Source: Exophiala sp. HKRS030 (lineage: Eukaryota > Ascomycota > Eurotiomycetes > Chaetothyriales > Herpotrichiellaceae). From it: a stretch of 64,000 nt of DNA. The notes under the pieces are model-generated. The model ran no database searches and was not told the DNA's origin. It saw only the letters and a list, made by a program, of their open reading frames with translations. The stretch is from NCBI GenBank assembly GCA_023897205.1, contig JAHWDD010000010.1:1178001-1242000 (forward strand), read 5' to 3'. Position 1 is the stretch's first letter, and each line of letters starts with the position of its first letter. Position numbers and translations under genes: made by a program. Of the stretch, positions 42,619 through 51,925 are shown in pieces.

Positions 42619-43248
42619 ATGGGTAGTCAAAAGAAGAAGACCGAGTCAAAGAAGGGCAAAGGCAAGGGCAATGACTCCACCGGGCCTCTCACCCCCCGCG
42701 AAGTCGAACTCTTGAGGCGCATCATGGCCTCTACCAATGCCTCTTCGTCTTCTCCAGCGGTCGTCCCCCTGGACTATGCCGAGCTCGGCAAGTCTTACCC
42801 TGGCGTGAATGCCAGAACCCTGTGAGTATCAGTCTTCTCCTTTGTGTGTGTGTGTGTGTGTGTGTTTGCAAAGCAGCGCATGTGTTCTGTGTCACTAATA
42901 GAGGTACTCCCCAAAAAATCTAGTCACCAACAAGTCCGGCGTTTGAGAAAGAAGACCCAAAGAATGGGCATCGATTTTAAGGGCGTTGGTAGGGGTAAAG
43001 GCACTCGCAGGGGCAAGAAGGCCCAGCAGAAGAAGAATGAGAAGGAAGAGGAGGAGGAGGATGATGATGATGAGACCGACGACGACGACGATGTTGGGTC
43101 GGCGGACCCGGGTTGCAAAACCAAGCAGCCCAAAGGTGATGATGATGATGATGATGACGACAATGGCCCAACCGGCAAAAAGGGTGGTGGCAGTGGTGGT
43201 GATGGTGGTTGTGCGCTCGCGATGCCAGTGGTTGTTGCCACAGCATGA
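42619..43248 (+). CDS. Myb/SANT-like acidic nuclear protein A (tandem array)
   Basis: Exons 42619-42821 and 42924-43248 give 175 residues. The N-terminus is Lys-rich (GSQKKKTESKKGKGKG). A three-helix Myb-like domain covers about residues 25-90: helix 1 REVELLRRIMAST, a Ser-rich insert, helix 2 LDYAELGKSYPGVNA, and helix 3 LHQQVRRLRKKTQRMGI. The intron falls after the second base of a codon between helices 2 and 3. The rest is basic (RGKGTRRGKKAQQKKN), then Glu/Asp runs, and ends in a Gly-rich hydrophobic tail unlike its neighbours. The domain resembles the fungal-specific Myb_DNA-bind_8 family. DNA binding is inferred, and no partner is known. It is the most diverged of the five in its tail and lacks the SUMO-type motif seen in B-E. 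Confidence 0.75.
42844..42865. repeat. (GT)11 microsatellite in the intron of gene A
   Basis: A run of 11 GT units lies just inside the 102-nt intron of gene A, about 20 nt after the donor. It lengthens this intron relative to those of the paralogues. Confidence 0.9.
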
Positions 43249-44407
43249 GACAGGGGGCCAAAGGGCCAATGGCCAATGTTGTTTGATGATGACCTTTGGG
43301 GGTCTTTTTACATGTAGGAGAATGATATGATATCAACATGGCCATCGTCATTTACAAACGTCTCATCTCATTCCAGAAAACAGGTTCATGTTGATGATGC
43401 TGACCGTACAGACAAAGAGGATTGATCGGCGGTGACGAGCGTGTCGACGTTGGGTTCAACGATGCTGACAATTGTAAATGGTATACAGGTCGACCGCACT
43501 CATAACGAGGCCACTGATTGCTATGTGTACTAACCATGTTGTACATGAGACGTTCATCATGATGTCAGTCGTTGTCAAAACCTCACAGCTTGGAAGACAC
43601 CACTTTCAACAAGGGCAATCAACGAGGACGACCATGACGACATTTCACGGGCCAACAACAGCTTCACAGAGAAGACCAGGTCAGCAGAAACTAAGTCTCA
43701 TTCGGATGAGGGTGATATTGACAGTGAACGGTCTTTGTTACAGTTCAGGCCGATAACATTTCAAAATGAGGTCGGTAATGGTCGACATCTGACGGACCGA
43801 CGATACTCACATCAGAGAGATCATTGCCGATATCAAAAAGGTCGACGAACATTTATACGACGATCCTACGGCTGGACGAAGACAAGATTTGCGAGCTACA
43901 GTATGAATACACGAAGAAACAGACCAGTGATATACATTCTACACCATCCCATTGTCTGCTACCAAGTGTGGCCGTTGTCATTCGACATATGAAAACTCGT
44001 TCAGCCTTGTTCTTTGAAACCACTGAATCCATGATCAGAATGCTGTTACTTCATCCTCATCTGAACGTGCACGACCCTGAACATGTTTCTTCACTTATCG
44101 CGTCACCAATAGGTGGATTGCACTCAGTTTTCGCGAGTACGTGAATACAAATACCACATGGGCTCACAAAACTTCCGGTTCACTCACATTATCTCTTTTC
44201 TCTTTCTCTCCCTCCACCATCTTCTATCTCGATCGAACCTCTACGACACTCTTCCAGCATCGAACATTTCCTATTCCTGTCAACACTCCATCAATCGTCA
44301 AACAACAACAGTAAGTCTGTCGCTCTGTCTTTTCGAGTTTCAGCATCTCCAGAGAGCCTCAAATTGACATGTCGCGCAGAATTCTTGAACCAGTCATCTC
44401 GTTCACA
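43249..44407. other. Spacer between Myb-like genes A and B
   Basis: About 1.16 kb. Scattered short open stretches (for example around 43820-44140) read in changing frames and do not match the Myb-like domain or any family I recognise. It could hold a decayed gene, but I cannot support one. The last 200 bp are pyrimidine-rich, as upstream of the other members. Confidence 0.4.
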
Positions 44408-45024
44408 ATGGCACCTCAAGGTTCGAAAACCGGCCCAAAGTCCACAATGGACAACGACGCCTTTCTCGCCAGGTGCATCAAGCACTCCAAGGAGAAGATC
44501 AACGTCGACTGGGAAGCATTCTCGAGGGACACCGGCATGAGTGTCGGAGGTGCTCGGTAAGTTTTACATTCAAACACACTGGTATTTCCTCGGCTTTGTG
44601 GCTCTTTGACACTCATTAAGGTTTTTTTTTCTGTCCGGCGCGTAAACTGACAAACCAAAAAAAAAATTCATTTAGCAACAAGTTCCGTGCAATCATGAAA
44701 CAACTCGAGGAGGCTGGTGCGGCTTGGTGTGCCAGGGACGCCGATGGAAATCCCATCACCACCTTCACCACCAGCCCCAGAAAGACCGCAACCGCCGGTG
44801 GCACCAAACGCAAAGCTGATTCAGAGACCAAGACCACCGCGAAGAAGATCAAGGCCGAGGACGACGGTGCGACTGCCGCCACAACCGCCGATGCTGATGA
44901 CGAAGGAGAACCGCCAAAGAAGAAGCGTACTCGTGTCATACGAGAGCCCAAGGTCGCACACGTTCTCACTCCTGAGGAGCTAGCCAAGTTCTGTCCAGGC
45001 GCAATAAGACCCTTGACTCAGTAA
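44408..45024 (+). CDS. Myb/SANT-like acidic nuclear protein B (tandem array)
   Basis: Exons 44408-44556 and 44676-45024 join to 165 residues. The Myb-like domain lies at about 15-70: helix 1 DAFLARCIKHSKEK, the conserved linker INVDWEAFSRDTGMSVGGA, helix 3 NKFRAIMKQLEEAG. The spliced codon is CG|C, the same phase as in the other members. A short AWCARDADGNPITTF segment follows, then KRKADSETKTTAKKIKAED. The latter holds a SUMO-type motif (IKAE) next to a lysine cluster. A second basic patch is PPKKKRTR. The C-terminus (VLTPEELAKFCPGAIRPL) is not acidic, unlike the rest of the array. An in-frame ATG at 44369 would add 13 residues; I preferred 44408 because its MAP start matches gene C. Confidence 0.82.
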
Positions 45025-45750
45025 AGGCTCCATGTCCATGTTTTGAGAGAAACAACAGTCAGTCAGTCAGTCCGACACAGAGACGAAGGAGAAGAACACA
45101 ACAACAGAAGAATGATACACCATGGAGTTGGGCTGGGCCGGTTCTGAAGGATTCAAGTCTTCAACGGGAAGACTGAAGTTCTCTCGCAAAGTTAGGATTC
45201 GCTGTGCTGTGCTTTTCCTTTGTGCTGATCATGCACTGCTCCCTTGAGAAGAGAGGCCGCCATGATGATGATGATGATGATGATGACAATGATGATGGTG
45301 ATGGAGGTAGTTTGTTAAACTACACAATCAATCCCCAAATGAAAGAATCGAACCAGTGAAAACAATCAAAGTGAAACTTGTTTTCATGTAATTGAAGTTG
45401 TTGCCTTGCCCTTACTTTTCGCCTTCTTTACAGTACGTTTTACACCAAAATCTTTAGGATCAAGTGAAGAGCTTTTGAACCGAGATTCAGGTTCGAGGAT
45501 GATGATGCTCATCACATGTAAAAACTTTCTCGATCTTGATCTTTCTTCCACTCATCGAGAAACTATTTAAGATCCTCCTGCTTCTTCCAATCTTTTTCCT
45601 CTTCTTCTCTTCTACTCATCCTTCCTTCCGAACCTCCAACCATTTCGAACAAGACAGATCGAATTCGTTTTTTCTTCTTCATCACACCAACAACCAACAC
45701 ACAAAAACAACATCTTACGCCCACAAGACGAAAGAACAAACGGAACAATC
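45025..45750. other. Spacer between Myb-like genes B and C
   Basis: 726 bp with a (ATG)n/(GAT)n trinucleotide run at 45262-45286 and a CT-rich leader before gene C. No gene is seen. Confidence 0.5.
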
Positions 45751-46318
45751 ATGGCACCGGCAAAGGAACCAAACGAAGAACTCAAGTTCGTCATGATGTG
45801 TATCAAGTACTCGGAGAGTGAATTGAAGCCAAACTTCGAAGAGGTTGCTCGTGAGACTGGAGCGAAGAGTGCAAGCGCATGGTGAGTTGCTGACTTTTAC
45901 TACCACTCACACGACTCTCGCCGGGTTCCACCTTTACTGACCTTTGGATGTCTCTAGCTACCATCGTTTGTGGACCATCAAGAAGAAGCTAGGACTCACT
46001 GGTTCCGGTCACAAGAAGGGTATCACTGCCTCTTGTTATGCTCCTTCCACCGTTGCTGGCGGTGGTGGTGGAACTCGCAAACGCAAGACTACAACTGCTT
46101 CAAAGGTCAAGGATGAGGATGAGGACGGTGTCGATGATGACGAGCAAGCCGCTGCACCACCCACCAAGAAGAAGCGTACCACCAAGAAGGTAGCTGCCGT
46201 CAAGCCAGAACCGGAATCTGATGGTGATGATGCTGGAAATGGAGATGATGGAGATGAGTCTGCTACTGTTGCTGATGATGATGATGATGACGACGACGAC
46301 GACGAAGAAGAAGCTTGA
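45751..46318 (+). CDS. Myb/SANT-like acidic nuclear protein C (tandem array)
   Basis: Exons 45751-45881 and 45958-46318 give 163 residues. The domain starts almost at the N-terminus: helix 1 ELKFVMMCIKYSESE, then LKPNFEEVARETGAKSASA, and helix 3 CYHRLWTIKKKLGLTG. The intron interrupts a TG|C codon at the shared site. A Gly-rich hinge is followed by RKRKTTTASKVKDEDED and a nuclear-localisation-like KKKRTTKK. Two SUMO-type motifs are visible (VKDE and VKPE). The tail is almost pure Asp/Glu and ends DDDEEEA. It closely resembles B and E in order of parts, which indicates a shared ancestor. Nuclear location and DNA binding are inferred. Confidence 0.85.
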
Positions 46319-46720
46319 GCTTGAGATGGTGCAGCTGATGAATTCAAGGAATGATGAATGACGAGTCTTCAGATCAGAACTACTACTGAGCTGCTACTAC
46401 TGCTACAGTGGCTAGCCAGTTTAGCTGTATTCCTACTTTGGCAGCTCGAGTGTCTTGCGAAAACAAGAACATGACACACACACACACACACACAAAAAAT
46501 ACAGAATTGCATTGCAAACCGATAAAATACAGACAGCAATTCAAATCAATACTTGAAACAATGACTCCATAAAGATCCTTGTCTGTAGATTCGTTATTCT
46601 TTTAGTACTGTATAAAGGTAACTGACACTCTTTGGTCCTTTGATAAAGCCTGGACACTGGGGAACTAGTAACTCGGTCAGTTTTGTCCGGGGTGATACAA
46701 CTGTGCTGATTCACACTTGG

Positions 46721-46862
46721 TGTAGGTAATGTTCTTCTGGACATGTGTCATACAGACACCATGGGATACTCACAATCAGGTAGGTACTCTCTGTAGGTCT
46801 TGTTTTTGTGGCCATTCGTCATGCAGACACCATGTGTCACTGGTGCTGTGGTACTCTCTGGT
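46721..46862. repeat. Diverged tandem repeat, about 71-bp unit
   Basis: TGTAGGT at 46721 and GTCATACAGACACCATG at 46747-46763 recur 71 bp later as TGTAGGT at 46792 and GTCATGCAGACACCATG at 46818-46834 (16 of 17 identical in the longer block). Weaker third and fourth units may follow near 46870 and 46970. Confidence 0.7.
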
Positions 46863-47246
46863 AAAGACTCTGGGTAGAAACTATTTTTCTGGGGGTGTTC
46901 ATCGTGAAAGCACCCTGTCCTGCTCTGTGTGTGTGTTTGTGGCCTCGCCGACACTGGTGGAAAAGCCTGTAGGTTGTGTTCTTGTCGTGTACTGTCCGAA
47001 CCTAGCCACGATGCTCTCATGAGTTGCTCTGTAGGCATACAAATCCTTTCCGAATGATCGCTACCTGACCAGGAATTCCCGATGGCCCTTGTGCATTTAG
47101 GCCTTGTCAGGCATTTGCATTGGATAAGGTACCGTGCTTCAGGGTGTCCGCTTGGTAGACATGGAAAAAGTGTCACAGGTGATCACGAAACGTGGGGATA
47201 TGGAGGATGAGTTGGAGAATGCTGTGTGCTAGTGTCATCCTTCCCG

Positions 47247-47450
47247 TGAAAACAGGCACGATACTCCAGGGCGTTCGTCTTGTAGGTAGCTGGCGGTATT
47301 GGATGTGATCGCGACCGTAGAGACAATGAGGACGAGCCAAGGATGTTGCCCTATTGTCGTGTTCTGGTTGAAAATAGGCACGATGGATACAGATATCATG
47401 CTATACACATTCATGACCATTGAGGACAATCGCGACCGCAATAACAATGA
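47247..47450. repeat. Diverged tandem duplication, about 121-bp unit
   Basis: TGAAAACAGGCACGAT (47247-47262) recurs as TGAAAATAGGCACGAT (47369-47384). The block 47308-47329 (ATCGCGACCG...ACAATGA) recurs at 47429-47450. Both pairs are offset by 121-122 bp, so they mark one duplicated unit. Confidence 0.75.
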
Positions 47451-47680
47451 CTGTCACTCCTGTTGTGTCCATCGTTGTCGCACACCCGTCGTCAAAAACG
47501 ATGCCGATTAGTCATCAGTTGTGCCAAGACACCACCCGTTTTCCGCAACGCCCACTGACGTCAACGTTATATCAAAACCGTCCACCGCTCACAACGACCT
47601 CACAACCTCGTCACGTGCACTCCAGCCTCGCCCGAGCCCCCTGTTTGTTCAAGCCTCGTACAACAGCGACAACCACAACA

Positions 47681-48255
47681 ATGCCGGCTGGACAACGCCT
47701 CGACGCCGAGGGGGTCATCAAGGCCCTCTGCGAGATGATGGCAACGGCGACCGAGTTCCAGGTCGACGTCGCGGCGATGCAGGCGCATTTTGGCGTCCAG
47801 GTGGACCGAACAATGTGAGTACCATTTCTCTATAAGGAATGCTTCTATAACGACCTATACCCTCTATATGTTTCTACGAGATTCAAGCTAACCACGACAA
47901 ACCTAGCCACCGAAAAATCGACAACTTGATAGAGCCATACGGCTACCGCTTCCGCCGCGGCCAGGTCGAGAAGGTGCCTGAGCCAGTTGAGGACGAGGAC
48001 GACGATGATGATGACGATGATGACAACGACGACGACGGCGATGAAGATGAAGACATGGAGGACGACGATGACGAAGATGATGATGATGACGACGATGATG
48101 GTGATGTGGCCGAGGCCCAGGGAGGGGTCGAAGAACAGGCCGGTGGAGGTGCCACCAACGAGGACGTCGATGAGGACATGGGAGGAGCCAGTGATGATGC
48201 TGCCGCTGCCGCTGAGGAAGAGACTGGCGCTGTCTCTATCAAGATCGAAGAGTAG
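47681..48255 (+). CDS. Myb/SANT-like extremely acidic protein D (tandem array)
   Basis: Exons 47681-47814 and 47907-48255 join (AT|C) to 160 residues. The helical domain spans about 8-62: EGVIKALCEMMATATEF, then QVDVAAMQAHFGVQVDRT, and helix 3 IHRKIDNLIEPYGYRFRRG. After a few residues (VEKVPEPV) comes an Asp/Glu tract of about 40 residues, broken only by occasional Asn, Gly or Met. An Ala/Gly linker and a SUMO-type C-terminus (SIKIEE, with IKIE) follow. It lacks the Lys/Arg patches of B, C and E, so its overall charge is strongly negative. Tails of this kind occur in histone chaperones and some HMG-type proteins. That comparison is suggestive only. Confidence 0.8.
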
Positions 48256-48654
48256 AGAAGCTGTTTTCTTTTTTTCGCTTGTTCTACAGCAGCATGCATA
48301 CCTTCGAGGTATGATAGGGCTTCGAGCCAGAGTGGGGCCTTGAGCCTCAATAGCAATGAGCAAATTGTGTTGAGATTCAGAATTCAGAGAGGGACGAGTG
48401 AGGACATAAGCTTCAAGTTTCACTTTACTTTCCCTCGCGTAATAGAGAGTAGCAAGATCCACCTGACTGGTTGGAAGCTTCCCCGGAGGGGTAATGAATT
48501 TGTCGTTCCGCTGATGCATCTCTGTTCATTTTTGACTCTCACCCCAACCCACCCACACCTCTTTGGATCGACAGCTCGATCTATCCTCAATCAACTCTTC
48601 CACTACAGCTTCATCTTAATCATTCTCCATCATCCATCTACTGCTTATTTCATC
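48256..48654. promoter_or_regulatory. Spacer between genes D and E
   Basis: 399 bp holding the 3' UTR of D and a C/T-rich leader and promoter for E. No gene is seen. Confidence 0.5.
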
Positions 48655-49128
48655 ATGCCTCCAAAGTCTGTTCCAGCAGCCGGTGCGATGCCCGATCCTC
48701 AGTTGCAGTTCCTCTTCTCCGCTCTCAAGCACTCGGAGAGTCTGAAGATCAACTGGGACGAAGTTGCAAAAGAGAATGGTATCGGTTATGCTCGCAATGC
48801 GTAAGTACACACCTTGAGATTTGTTCTATCATCGACGCTTTTACTGACCCTATGATCTCAATACAGTGCCACCAAATTCAAGAATTTCGTCGCGAAGCAA
48901 GGATTCAAGTACGAAAACAACTCGATCAGCCCTGCCGATGGCACCGCGGTCAAAACTCCCAAGACTACACCTTCCCGCAAGCGCAAGGTCAAGGATGAGA
49001 ACGATGGCCAGGAAAAGACTCCCAGCAAGGCACCGAAGAAAAAGGTTGCAAGTGCAGTCAAGAACGAGCCCGTCGACGACGACCTCACCGAAGACGATGA
49101 CCTGGCAGACGTCGAGGATGACGAGTAG
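48655..49128 (+). CDS. Myb/SANT-like acidic nuclear protein E (tandem array)
   Basis: Exons 48655-48800 and 48867-49128 give 135 residues, the shortest member. The domain is closest to B and C: helix 1 LQFLFSALKHSES, LKINWDEVAKENGIGYARN, and helix 3 ATKFKNFVAKQGFKYEN. The shared intron splits a GC|T codon. The tail holds SRKRKVKDEND (basic patch plus SUMO-type VKDE), APKKKVASAVKNEP (second basic patch plus VKNE), and ends in a modest acidic stretch. It lies 482 bp before utp25 on the same strand and ends the array. Confidence 0.84.
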
Positions 49129-49609: not shown

Positions 49610-51925
49610 ATGCCTGTATTCAGAGGCGGGAGAGGTGGCAGAGGTCGCCAATCTGGCGGAAGAGGTCGTGGTGGGGCAAGAAGACCCGCAACTCAATTGC
49701 GAGACACTTTCCAAACCTCACGACTGGGGCAGACAGAGTACGTTGTGCTGGCATTCGTTCAGACTTCATGAACGCCTTTACTGATGCGAACCAGGGATGT
49801 TGCCTCTCAGGGGCTTTCATCGGCCGAGTCTATAGATGGCGACATCAACGAGAGCGAGGGCCCATCAGAAGAAGTTGGAGCAAGCCAATCCGGAAGCGAA
49901 GACGAAAGCCCCTCTACGAATTCCTATGCCACACTTTTGCATTCATTGAGCACGGGGAGACAGAACAGCGAGCCTGCTAAGAAAAAGAGAAAGATCGAAG
50001 ATGGAACCAAACAAGAATCGTCTATTGCCGATGATCATCTGGACGGCACTGCTTCAACTCCAAAGACTGAGGAAGTTTCTGCTACTGAGGTGCTGGACGA
50101 AGAGGTCGAAGCAGACGAAGAAGGCGACGATCCAGCCACCAATGCCGACTCTGATGACGAGGACAGCCTTCTAAAGGATCCCTTTGAGAGACATTACAGT
50201 GCCGTGGTCGAGCAAGATCTGAAGGATGCAGCGCAGCGGGTTGAACAGAAGGATTGGCAGTCGCAGGCTGTGCTGATAGGGGATGATGTTCGAAAGACCA
50301 CAACCTCGCTCAAAGACCGGCCGATACCAGCGACCAAGTTCAGAGGCTTCAAAGATCTCCGTTTGAAGCGACGACTTCTCGAGACTGGGACCATGCTTGC
50401 TTCTTCGTTATCCTCGGACGAGAAAGACCTGGCCAACGCCATGTTCAACTATACCGACATTGTCGACGGCAACCGCACACTCAAAAACTCGTCCCGGCTT
50501 CGTGAGATATCCGCCCTGCATGCTCTCAACCATGTCTTCAAGACTCGCGATCGTATTCTCAAGAACAATGCCAAAATCAGCTCCAGCAGCGAGACTCTCG
50601 ATCTGCGCGACCAAGGCTTCACCCGCCCGAAGGTCCTGATCATCGTCCCGACAAAGCAAGCTTGTGTACGTCTCGTAGACAGCGTCGTCAAGTTCTGCGA
50701 GCCGGATCAACAGGAGAACAAGTCTCGCTTCCTCGAGACCTACTCCCACGAGGACGGCGACGAGTGGGCCGACAAGCCCGACGACTTTCGGGCCCTGTTT
50801 GGCGGGAACCACGAAGAAGATTTCCGCATCGGCCTCAAGTTCACCCGCAAGACGATCAAGTACTTTTCCGGTTTCTACAACTCGGACATCATCGTCGGCT
50901 CGCCCCTGGGGCTGATGCGGACCATCACCACGGGCGGCGGCGGCGGCGGGGGACCCAACAAGGACGGCAACAAGAAAAAGGCGCACGACGCAGACTTTCT
51001 GTCCTCGATCGAGGTGGTGGTCGTGGACCACGCCAACGCGCTGCAGATGCAGAACTGGCAGCACGTCGATTACGTCTTTTCGCAGCTCAACCTGCTCCCC
51101 AAGGAGTCGCACGGCTGTGACTTTTCGCGCGTCCGCCACTGGTACCTCGACGGCCAGGCCAAGTATCTCCGCCAGACCGTCATCCTGTCCGACTTTTTGA
51201 CGCCCGAGGTCAACTCGCTCGCGACGTCCCATTTGTTCAACGTGGCGGGCCGGGTGAAATACCTCCCCACGTACCCTGGGGCCATGCTGGGAGTCAACTC
51301 GATTCTGCCCGTCAGCGTCCCTCAGACGTTCTTGCGCGTCGACTCGCCCAACCCACTCGCCGACGCGGACGGTCGGTTCAAGTTCTTCACGACGACCATC
51401 CTGCCGCCGCTGGTGCGCAACGCAAAAGCCCAAAAGGGGACCCTGTTGTACACGACGAGCTACGCCGACTTCGTGAGGTTGAGGAACCACCTCGCCACGA
51501 GCCCCGACGCCGCCAACCTCTCTTTCGGCAGCGTGAGCGAGTACTCCCCGGTCAAGGAGGTGCTGCGAGCCCGTTCGCATTTCTTGTCGGGCCGCCACGC
51601 GCTGTTGCTGTACTCGGAGCGAGCCCATCACCACTTTCGCTACCGGATCAAGGGCGTCCGCCGCGTCATTTTCTACAACGTCCCCGAGAACCCGGTCTTT
51701 TGGACAGATGTCGTGGGTCTGCTGGGTATCACCATGGATGCAGATACAAAGGGCGGCGGCGGCGGCGGCAGAGGGACATCCGGTAACAGTACCACCAGGA
51801 CCAAAGGCGCGGTTCGTGCCTTGTTCTCCAAATGGGACGCCATGAAACTCGAAAGGATTGTCGGCACCGAGAGGGTCGGGAGATTGATTCATGACCGAGG
51901 AGGTGACACTTTTGACTTTGTCTGA
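49610..51925 (+). CDS. utp25: Ribosome biogenesis factor Utp25
   Basis: Exons 49610-49737 and 49795-51925 join across a 57-nt intron (GTACGT donor) to 752 residues. Utp25 is a nucleolar U3-snoRNP-associated protein of the small-subunit processome, shaped like a DEAD-box helicase but without working ATPase motifs. Exon 1 encodes an RGG-type arm (FRGGRGGRGRQSGGRGRGG), typical of nucleolar proteins. An acidic, basic-patched linker runs to about residue 170. Family blocks follow: NYTDIVDGNRTLKNSSRLRE, RPKVLIIVPTKQACVRLVDS, FYNSDIIVGSPLGLMRTI, IEVVVVDHANALQMQNWQHV, and LTPEVNSLATSHLFNVAGRV. VDHA replaces the DEAD box. Two species-specific poly-Gly loops lie near residues 389 and 700. Confidence 0.93.

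Follow-up and report, generated by a model that had tools for sequence, protein, structure and literature searches.

Five tandem genes of Exophiala sp. HKRS030, three with a Myb_DNA-bind_8 domain and four with SUMO-consensus motifs in their tails

RESULTS

The array and its protein family

We analysed a window of 64,000 nucleotides from Exophiala sp. HKRS030 (contig JAHWDD010000010.1, positions 1,178,001 to 1,242,000), in which the stretch 42619-49128 is filled by an array of five same-strand genes, A, B, C, D and E in their order (Table 1). Each gene has a single phase-2 intron, placed inside an N-terminal three-helix domain. The gene models thus bear out the five same-strand genes with one common plan that an earlier note, made from the letters of this DNA, had described. 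The splice of gene A is identical in Knufia peltigerae H2204_006435 and that of gene D in Exophiala oligosperma LTS17_011542, and the gene E protein is 100% identical to database record P0001 (Knufia peltigerae H2204). The protein family itself is known; what is new here is an old three-gene set of conserved order, a probable wing outside the family model and tails with SUMO-consensus motifs.

Table 1. Genes and sequence features of the array and its downstream neighbour (window coordinates)
Feature	Position	Strand	Details and basis
Gene A, 175 aa	42619..43248	+	phase-2 intron 42822-42923; diverged member; tail mixed K-rich/acidic
Gene B, 165 aa	44408..45024	+	phase-2 intron 44557-44675; Myb_DNA-bind_8 domain residues 15-61
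I-K-A-E, tail of B	44848..44859	+	sequence; motif statistics
EPPKKKRTRV in B, basic stretch like a nuclear localisation signal (NLS)	44908..44937	+	sequence
Gene C, 163 aa	45751..46318	+	phase-2 intron 45882-45957; Myb_DNA-bind_8 domain residues 8-56; C-terminus acidic
V-K-D-E, tail of C	46106..46117	+	sequence; repeat D3; second motif VKPE further downstream
Gene D, 160 aa	47681..48255	+	phase-2 intron 47815-47906; Asp-rich long tail
I-K-I-E-E, C-terminal in D	48238..48252	+	sequence; sole SUMO consensus of an otherwise Lys-poor tail
Gene E, 135 aa	48655..49128	+	phase-2 intron 48801-48866; Myb_DNA-bind_8 domain residues 13-56; predicted hairpin 62-71
RKRKVKDE in E, a basic NLS-like patch that runs into a SUMO consensus	48976..48999	+	sequence; KRK nearly invariant in alignment A4
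UTP25, outside the array	49610..51925	+	downstream marker for the array in each of the two collinear segments; Utp25_C matched in both

We compared the five proteins with the profile PF22980 (Myb_DNA-bind_8; 50 positions, curated cut-off 27 bits). B, C and E scored above the cut-off (41.0, 46.1 and 43.9 bits, respectively), A and D gave no match at E-values up to 1, and aligning A and D to the family by hhalign was unsupported. The earlier note had placed the whole array in this family and had named a match in fewer than three members as one result that would speak against it. With three of the five significant, the assignment stands for B, C and E and lacks a match for A and D, which we called array paralogues by their intron, their order and, for D, the structure model. 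What B, C and E have in common with the family, besides the score, is the N-terminal domain and a long disordered-looking tail. The array differs from PF22980 not only in A and D but also in a predicted hairpin outside the span of the model and in SUMO-consensus-rich tails, which the model does not contain.

In alignment A4, which comprises gene E and 19 relatives (P0016 and P0017 were left out; P0023-P0025 were not in the set), PF22980 was matched in all 20 rows at E-values up to 1. The canonical Myb/SANT profile PF00249 matched none of the five array proteins at E-values up to 1 and two of the 20 A4 rows weakly (best E-value 0.028). LexA_DNA_bind likewise gave a weak match in two A4 rows (best E-value 0.007), and the top Pfam row of gene A was Trans_reg_C, below threshold (E-value 0.0091). 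A literature search on PF22980, IPR054505 and Myb_DNA-bind_8 found no paper in the searched library that names the family. PMC7179667 reports Myb-like/SANT proteins that, among E. dermatitidis isolates, were exclusive to those from the brain; we saw nothing in it that connects those proteins to this array.

Domain fold and helix 3

We modelled E together with relatives, and D by itself, in AlphaFold; the two models, which are modest, have the topology helix-helix-helix-hairpin. The beta-hairpin follows helix 3, an arrangement that resembles a winged helix more than a plain Myb domain. In the fold searches, LexA was the top row for gene E in both programs and PurR the top row for gene D in the second program, all of them weak matches; the rows of gene E also included the Myb domains of Reb1 and ARR1. 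Helix order and C-terminal hairpin are what the two models share with winged helix-turn-helix proteins (the LexA N-terminal domain, MntR, PurR, GntR and CRP), and the hairpin sets them apart from canonical Myb/SANT. Structure prediction, which the earlier note had proposed as a check, thus yielded one common topology for E and D but one with a hairpin unlike plain Myb. Because both models carry this hairpin and winged-helix proteins give the best, albeit weak, fold matches, it is doubtful whether the fold should be called Myb/SANT, and the models indicate that a wing probably follows helix 3 in E and D.

Within each of the B, C and E groups, helix 3 identity is 0.65-0.76; from one group to another it is 0.16-0.25. 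As helix 3 is conserved within groups and different between them, its sequence suggests that B, C and E have distinct DNA specificities. Its net charge is +2 to +4 in all 20 B, C and E rows examined, +6 in A and 0 in D.

The group-specific helix 3 also bears on the suggestion of the earlier note that these might be chromatin-architecture proteins. On that account they would resemble linker histones or HMG proteins, with a small winged-helix-like domain and charged tails that bind DNA without sequence preference. Linker histone chains do occur among the weak Foldseek rows of gene E (6la9_S, E-value 1.2; 8yti_V, E-value 2.4), the copy of E in a second array of the assembly, on C5, contains a KTPKTPKTPK run, and the tails of C and D are acidic. 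However, the linker-histone rows are no better than those of many bacterial regulators, and a helix 3 that is kept within groups and changed between them argues against binding without sequence preference. We therefore regard chromatin architecture as possible but not favoured, and in our judgement quite improbable.

SUMO consensus in the tails

The motif [VIL]KxE, the consensus at which cells attach the regulator SUMO, is present in the tails of B, C, D and E and absent from that of A. We compared its frequency with the expectation from 5000 composition-preserving shuffles of the tails. The five window tails contain it six times (0.4 expected, shuffle maximum 5), the three C5 tails also six times (0.3 expected, maximum 4), and a set of 16 proteins from other fungi 28 times (2.7 expected, maximum 10). 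This is an enrichment of tenfold or more in each pooled set, which the earlier note did not mention. The reversed motif was found 1, 1 and 2 times in these sets, respectively, and [VIL]RxE in none of them (0, 0, 0). Stop-to-stop frames of at least 200 residues from the same regions were not enriched (7 versus 6.0 expected in 26 frames; 3 versus 7.4 in 33 frames). The pooled count for other fungi left out the copies of window genes (P0001, P0023 and P0024), the C6 gene and the near-copies P0002, P0006, P0013 and P0015, three of which (P0006, P0013 and, among the window-gene copies, P0024) have no motif; fragments P0017 and P0025 are outside all motif counts. Row by row, 26 of 31 have at least one [VIL]KxE and five have none.

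The consensus lies 15 residues or fewer from the C-terminus in 13 of 26 rows, compared to 6.1 expected under uniform placement (p 0.0014; P0024, P0023, P0002, P0006, P0013 and P0015 left out, the C4 gene added). As the 15-residue limit was chosen after the ends were seen, this position is a lead only. The motif statistics of the tails, in turn, give a direct hypothesis of SUMO regulation.

Could the array instead encode small transcription factors of the usual sequence-specific kind, belonging to Myb_DNA-bind_8, whose tail motifs arise simply because disordered sequence is rich in Lys and Glu, with no special part for SUMO? The PF22980 matches and the basic helix 3 would fit this explanation, as would the two weak PF00249 rows of A4 and the presence of Reb1 and ARR1 in the fold rows. 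But neither the composition-preserving shuffles nor the reversed motif reach the observed counts, and other local frames are without enrichment. We consider plain transcription factors unlikely, though a serious contender, and prefer a specific role of SUMO.

Divergence of the tails

The proposal of the earlier note that the tails evolve faster than the domain is supported by the between-species pairs compared, in which the difference is large. Compared to E. spinifera, gene E is 83% identical in the domain and 46% in the tail, and gene C 85% and 36%; B and its C5 counterpart share 63% and 21%. Within this divergence the [VIL]KxE consensus is kept, as is a basic KRK patch after the linker, its columns being nearly invariant in the 20 rows of A4. 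EPPKKKRTRV in B is a putative NLS.

The Asp tracts, runs of GAY codons at window positions 47980-48110 and 43048-43165, vary in length between strains. In gene D of E. oligosperma LTS17 the Asp-rich tract is 10 residues shorter, and gene A of Knufia peltigerae H2204 has one Asp fewer and two substitutions. This length variation is tail evolution by repeat slippage.

Age of the array and the standing of A and D

The order B-C-E followed by UTP25, a ribosome-biogenesis gene, recurs elsewhere in the assembly, in a collinear segment on C5, where the counterpart of the window UTP25 (C5:3872665-3874722) is 61% identical to it. Nucleotide comparison of the two arrays by blastn gave four matching pieces, all of them in UTP25 or upstream of the array and none within it. 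A protein search with a six-sequence alignment, which scored the 7995 candidates sharing most words, found 19 matches, and one with the C5 copy of B found five; all are annotated PF22980. The named relatives belong to Chaetothyriales, with Monascus and Hortaea more distant. E- and C-type proteins carry near-adjacent tags in Exophiala spinifera (PV08_03829/03831) and adjacent ones in Capronia coronata (A1O1_07439/07440).

In a domain tree, gene C groups with E. spinifera PV08_03831 (support 92/92). Three of the 25 inner branches are starred, and of the three groups only B carries a star (95/98), C and E being drawn open. A and D sit on very long branches, and the E fork takes in D as well as the C6 gene. 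As evidence on the history of the array this tree is weak.

The local duplication suggested in the earlier note is supported, and synteny, which the note had proposed as a check, is seen in the C5 segment and the neighbouring tags. Expansion in place, if read as recent, is rejected: B-, C- and E-type proteins exist in other genera, their order is repeated in the second segment, and helix 3 is alike within and unlike between the types. The B-C-E trio is old.

A six-frame search of the assembly with PF22980 gave nine matches, seven above the cut-off: three in the window array, three in the C5 array and a strong one on C6 (C6:248067), which sits in a 575-residue frame; those below the cut-off are on C4 and C16. 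The C4 gene (C4:4111751) resembles the array in its Myb_DNA-bind_8 domain (just below the cut-off); it also has two [VIL]KxE motifs and, ahead of helix 3, a phase-2 intron. Since it too has this intron, the phase-2 intron is probably older than the array. The C6 gene shares the domain but has it within a single open frame. Both differ from the array in being single genes with much longer tails and no array seen around them. C4:4111751 and C16:466071, both single genes of Myb_DNA-bind_8-like type, form a pair, and a chaperonin-family match lies near each of them.

A and D have a narrower distribution. With the tails masked, three matches to them were found among 165 candidates, the named ones from the same species group. 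No counterpart was seen in the C5 segment (whole open frames, E-value 1e-6; short diverged exons would escape), and no further copy was found elsewhere in the assembly. Hence only B, C and E might be functional, A and D being decaying or neutral derivatives, a question separate from those of transcription factors and chromatin architecture. The small number of relatives and the uncharged helix 3 of D point in that direction. On the other hand, the frames and introns of both are intact here and in one other record each, their domain parts are 99% and 100% identical between strains with length changes confined to the Asp tracts, and D keeps both the topology, in its model, and the C-terminal IKIEE. 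Loss of function in A and D is on balance unlikely, but worth keeping in view.

Near-identical genes of one array appear under two species names (P0001 and P0024, Knufia peltigerae H2204; P0023, Exophiala oligosperma LTS17), and one of these records is probably misnamed or mixed.

A model for the array

In our proposal the products of the array are small DNA-binding proteins of the nucleus that are regulated by SUMO, and every paralogue has its own recognition helix. We give this an even chance of being right; DNA binding and SUMO conjugation are inferred. The basic helix 3 would read DNA, probably together with the hairpin wing in E and D, and each of B, C and E would have target sites of its own because helix 3 differs between the types. 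The KRK patches would carry the protein into the nucleus, where the [VIL]KxE lysines of the flexible tail could receive SUMO. Attached SUMO would then switch partner recruitment, most likely towards repression, and the acidic runs, which would lengthen and shorten through gain and loss of GAY codons, may weaken or tune the contact with DNA. B, C and E would have arisen by old tandem duplication, with functions kept apart in black yeasts, and D, which is closest to E, and A, which weakly resembles B or C best, would be later, fast-diverging derivatives; D, despite few tail lysines, would retain a SUMO consensus at its end. If the proposal is true, it opens a group of 'hypothetical' fungal proteins to tests of their function.

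A bolder version, which we rate as rather doubtful, extends this to Myb_DNA-bind_8 as a whole. It would be a fungal winged-helix family that carries SUMO to chosen DNA sites, with helix 3 as the address reader and a multi-site SUMO-accepting tail, often terminated by [VIL]KxE. The array would then provide tags for SUMO-dependent silencing or anchoring in black yeasts.

Duplication in the assembly and minor observations

The window with 10 kb flanks is collinear with C5:3814001-3914000, the matched frames being ~30-92% identical. We fetched 19 loci (11 of 11 MCM matches and eight of 24 chaperonin matches, the latter picked as pair-like), 18 of which form nine pairs with 75-94% identity; in six of these pairs both loci lie on one contig. 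UTP25 is present twice, but of the three RNA-polymerase second-subunit types only one is. The assembly thus looks largely doubled, which may reflect either a single genome that is duplicated or hybrid, or an assembly that joins two species. COX1 and 5.8S rRNA, sought in the assembly to tell these apart, gave no match, and scoring by codon usage did not sort the loci into two sets. GC3 was higher in the window copy in all five gene pairs compared.

Stretches of 400 bases upstream (n=8) had no 8-mer common to at least four of them (random control average 0.27). The intergenic stretch between C and D holds a 50-base direct repeat, 78% identical, at window positions 46721-46841.
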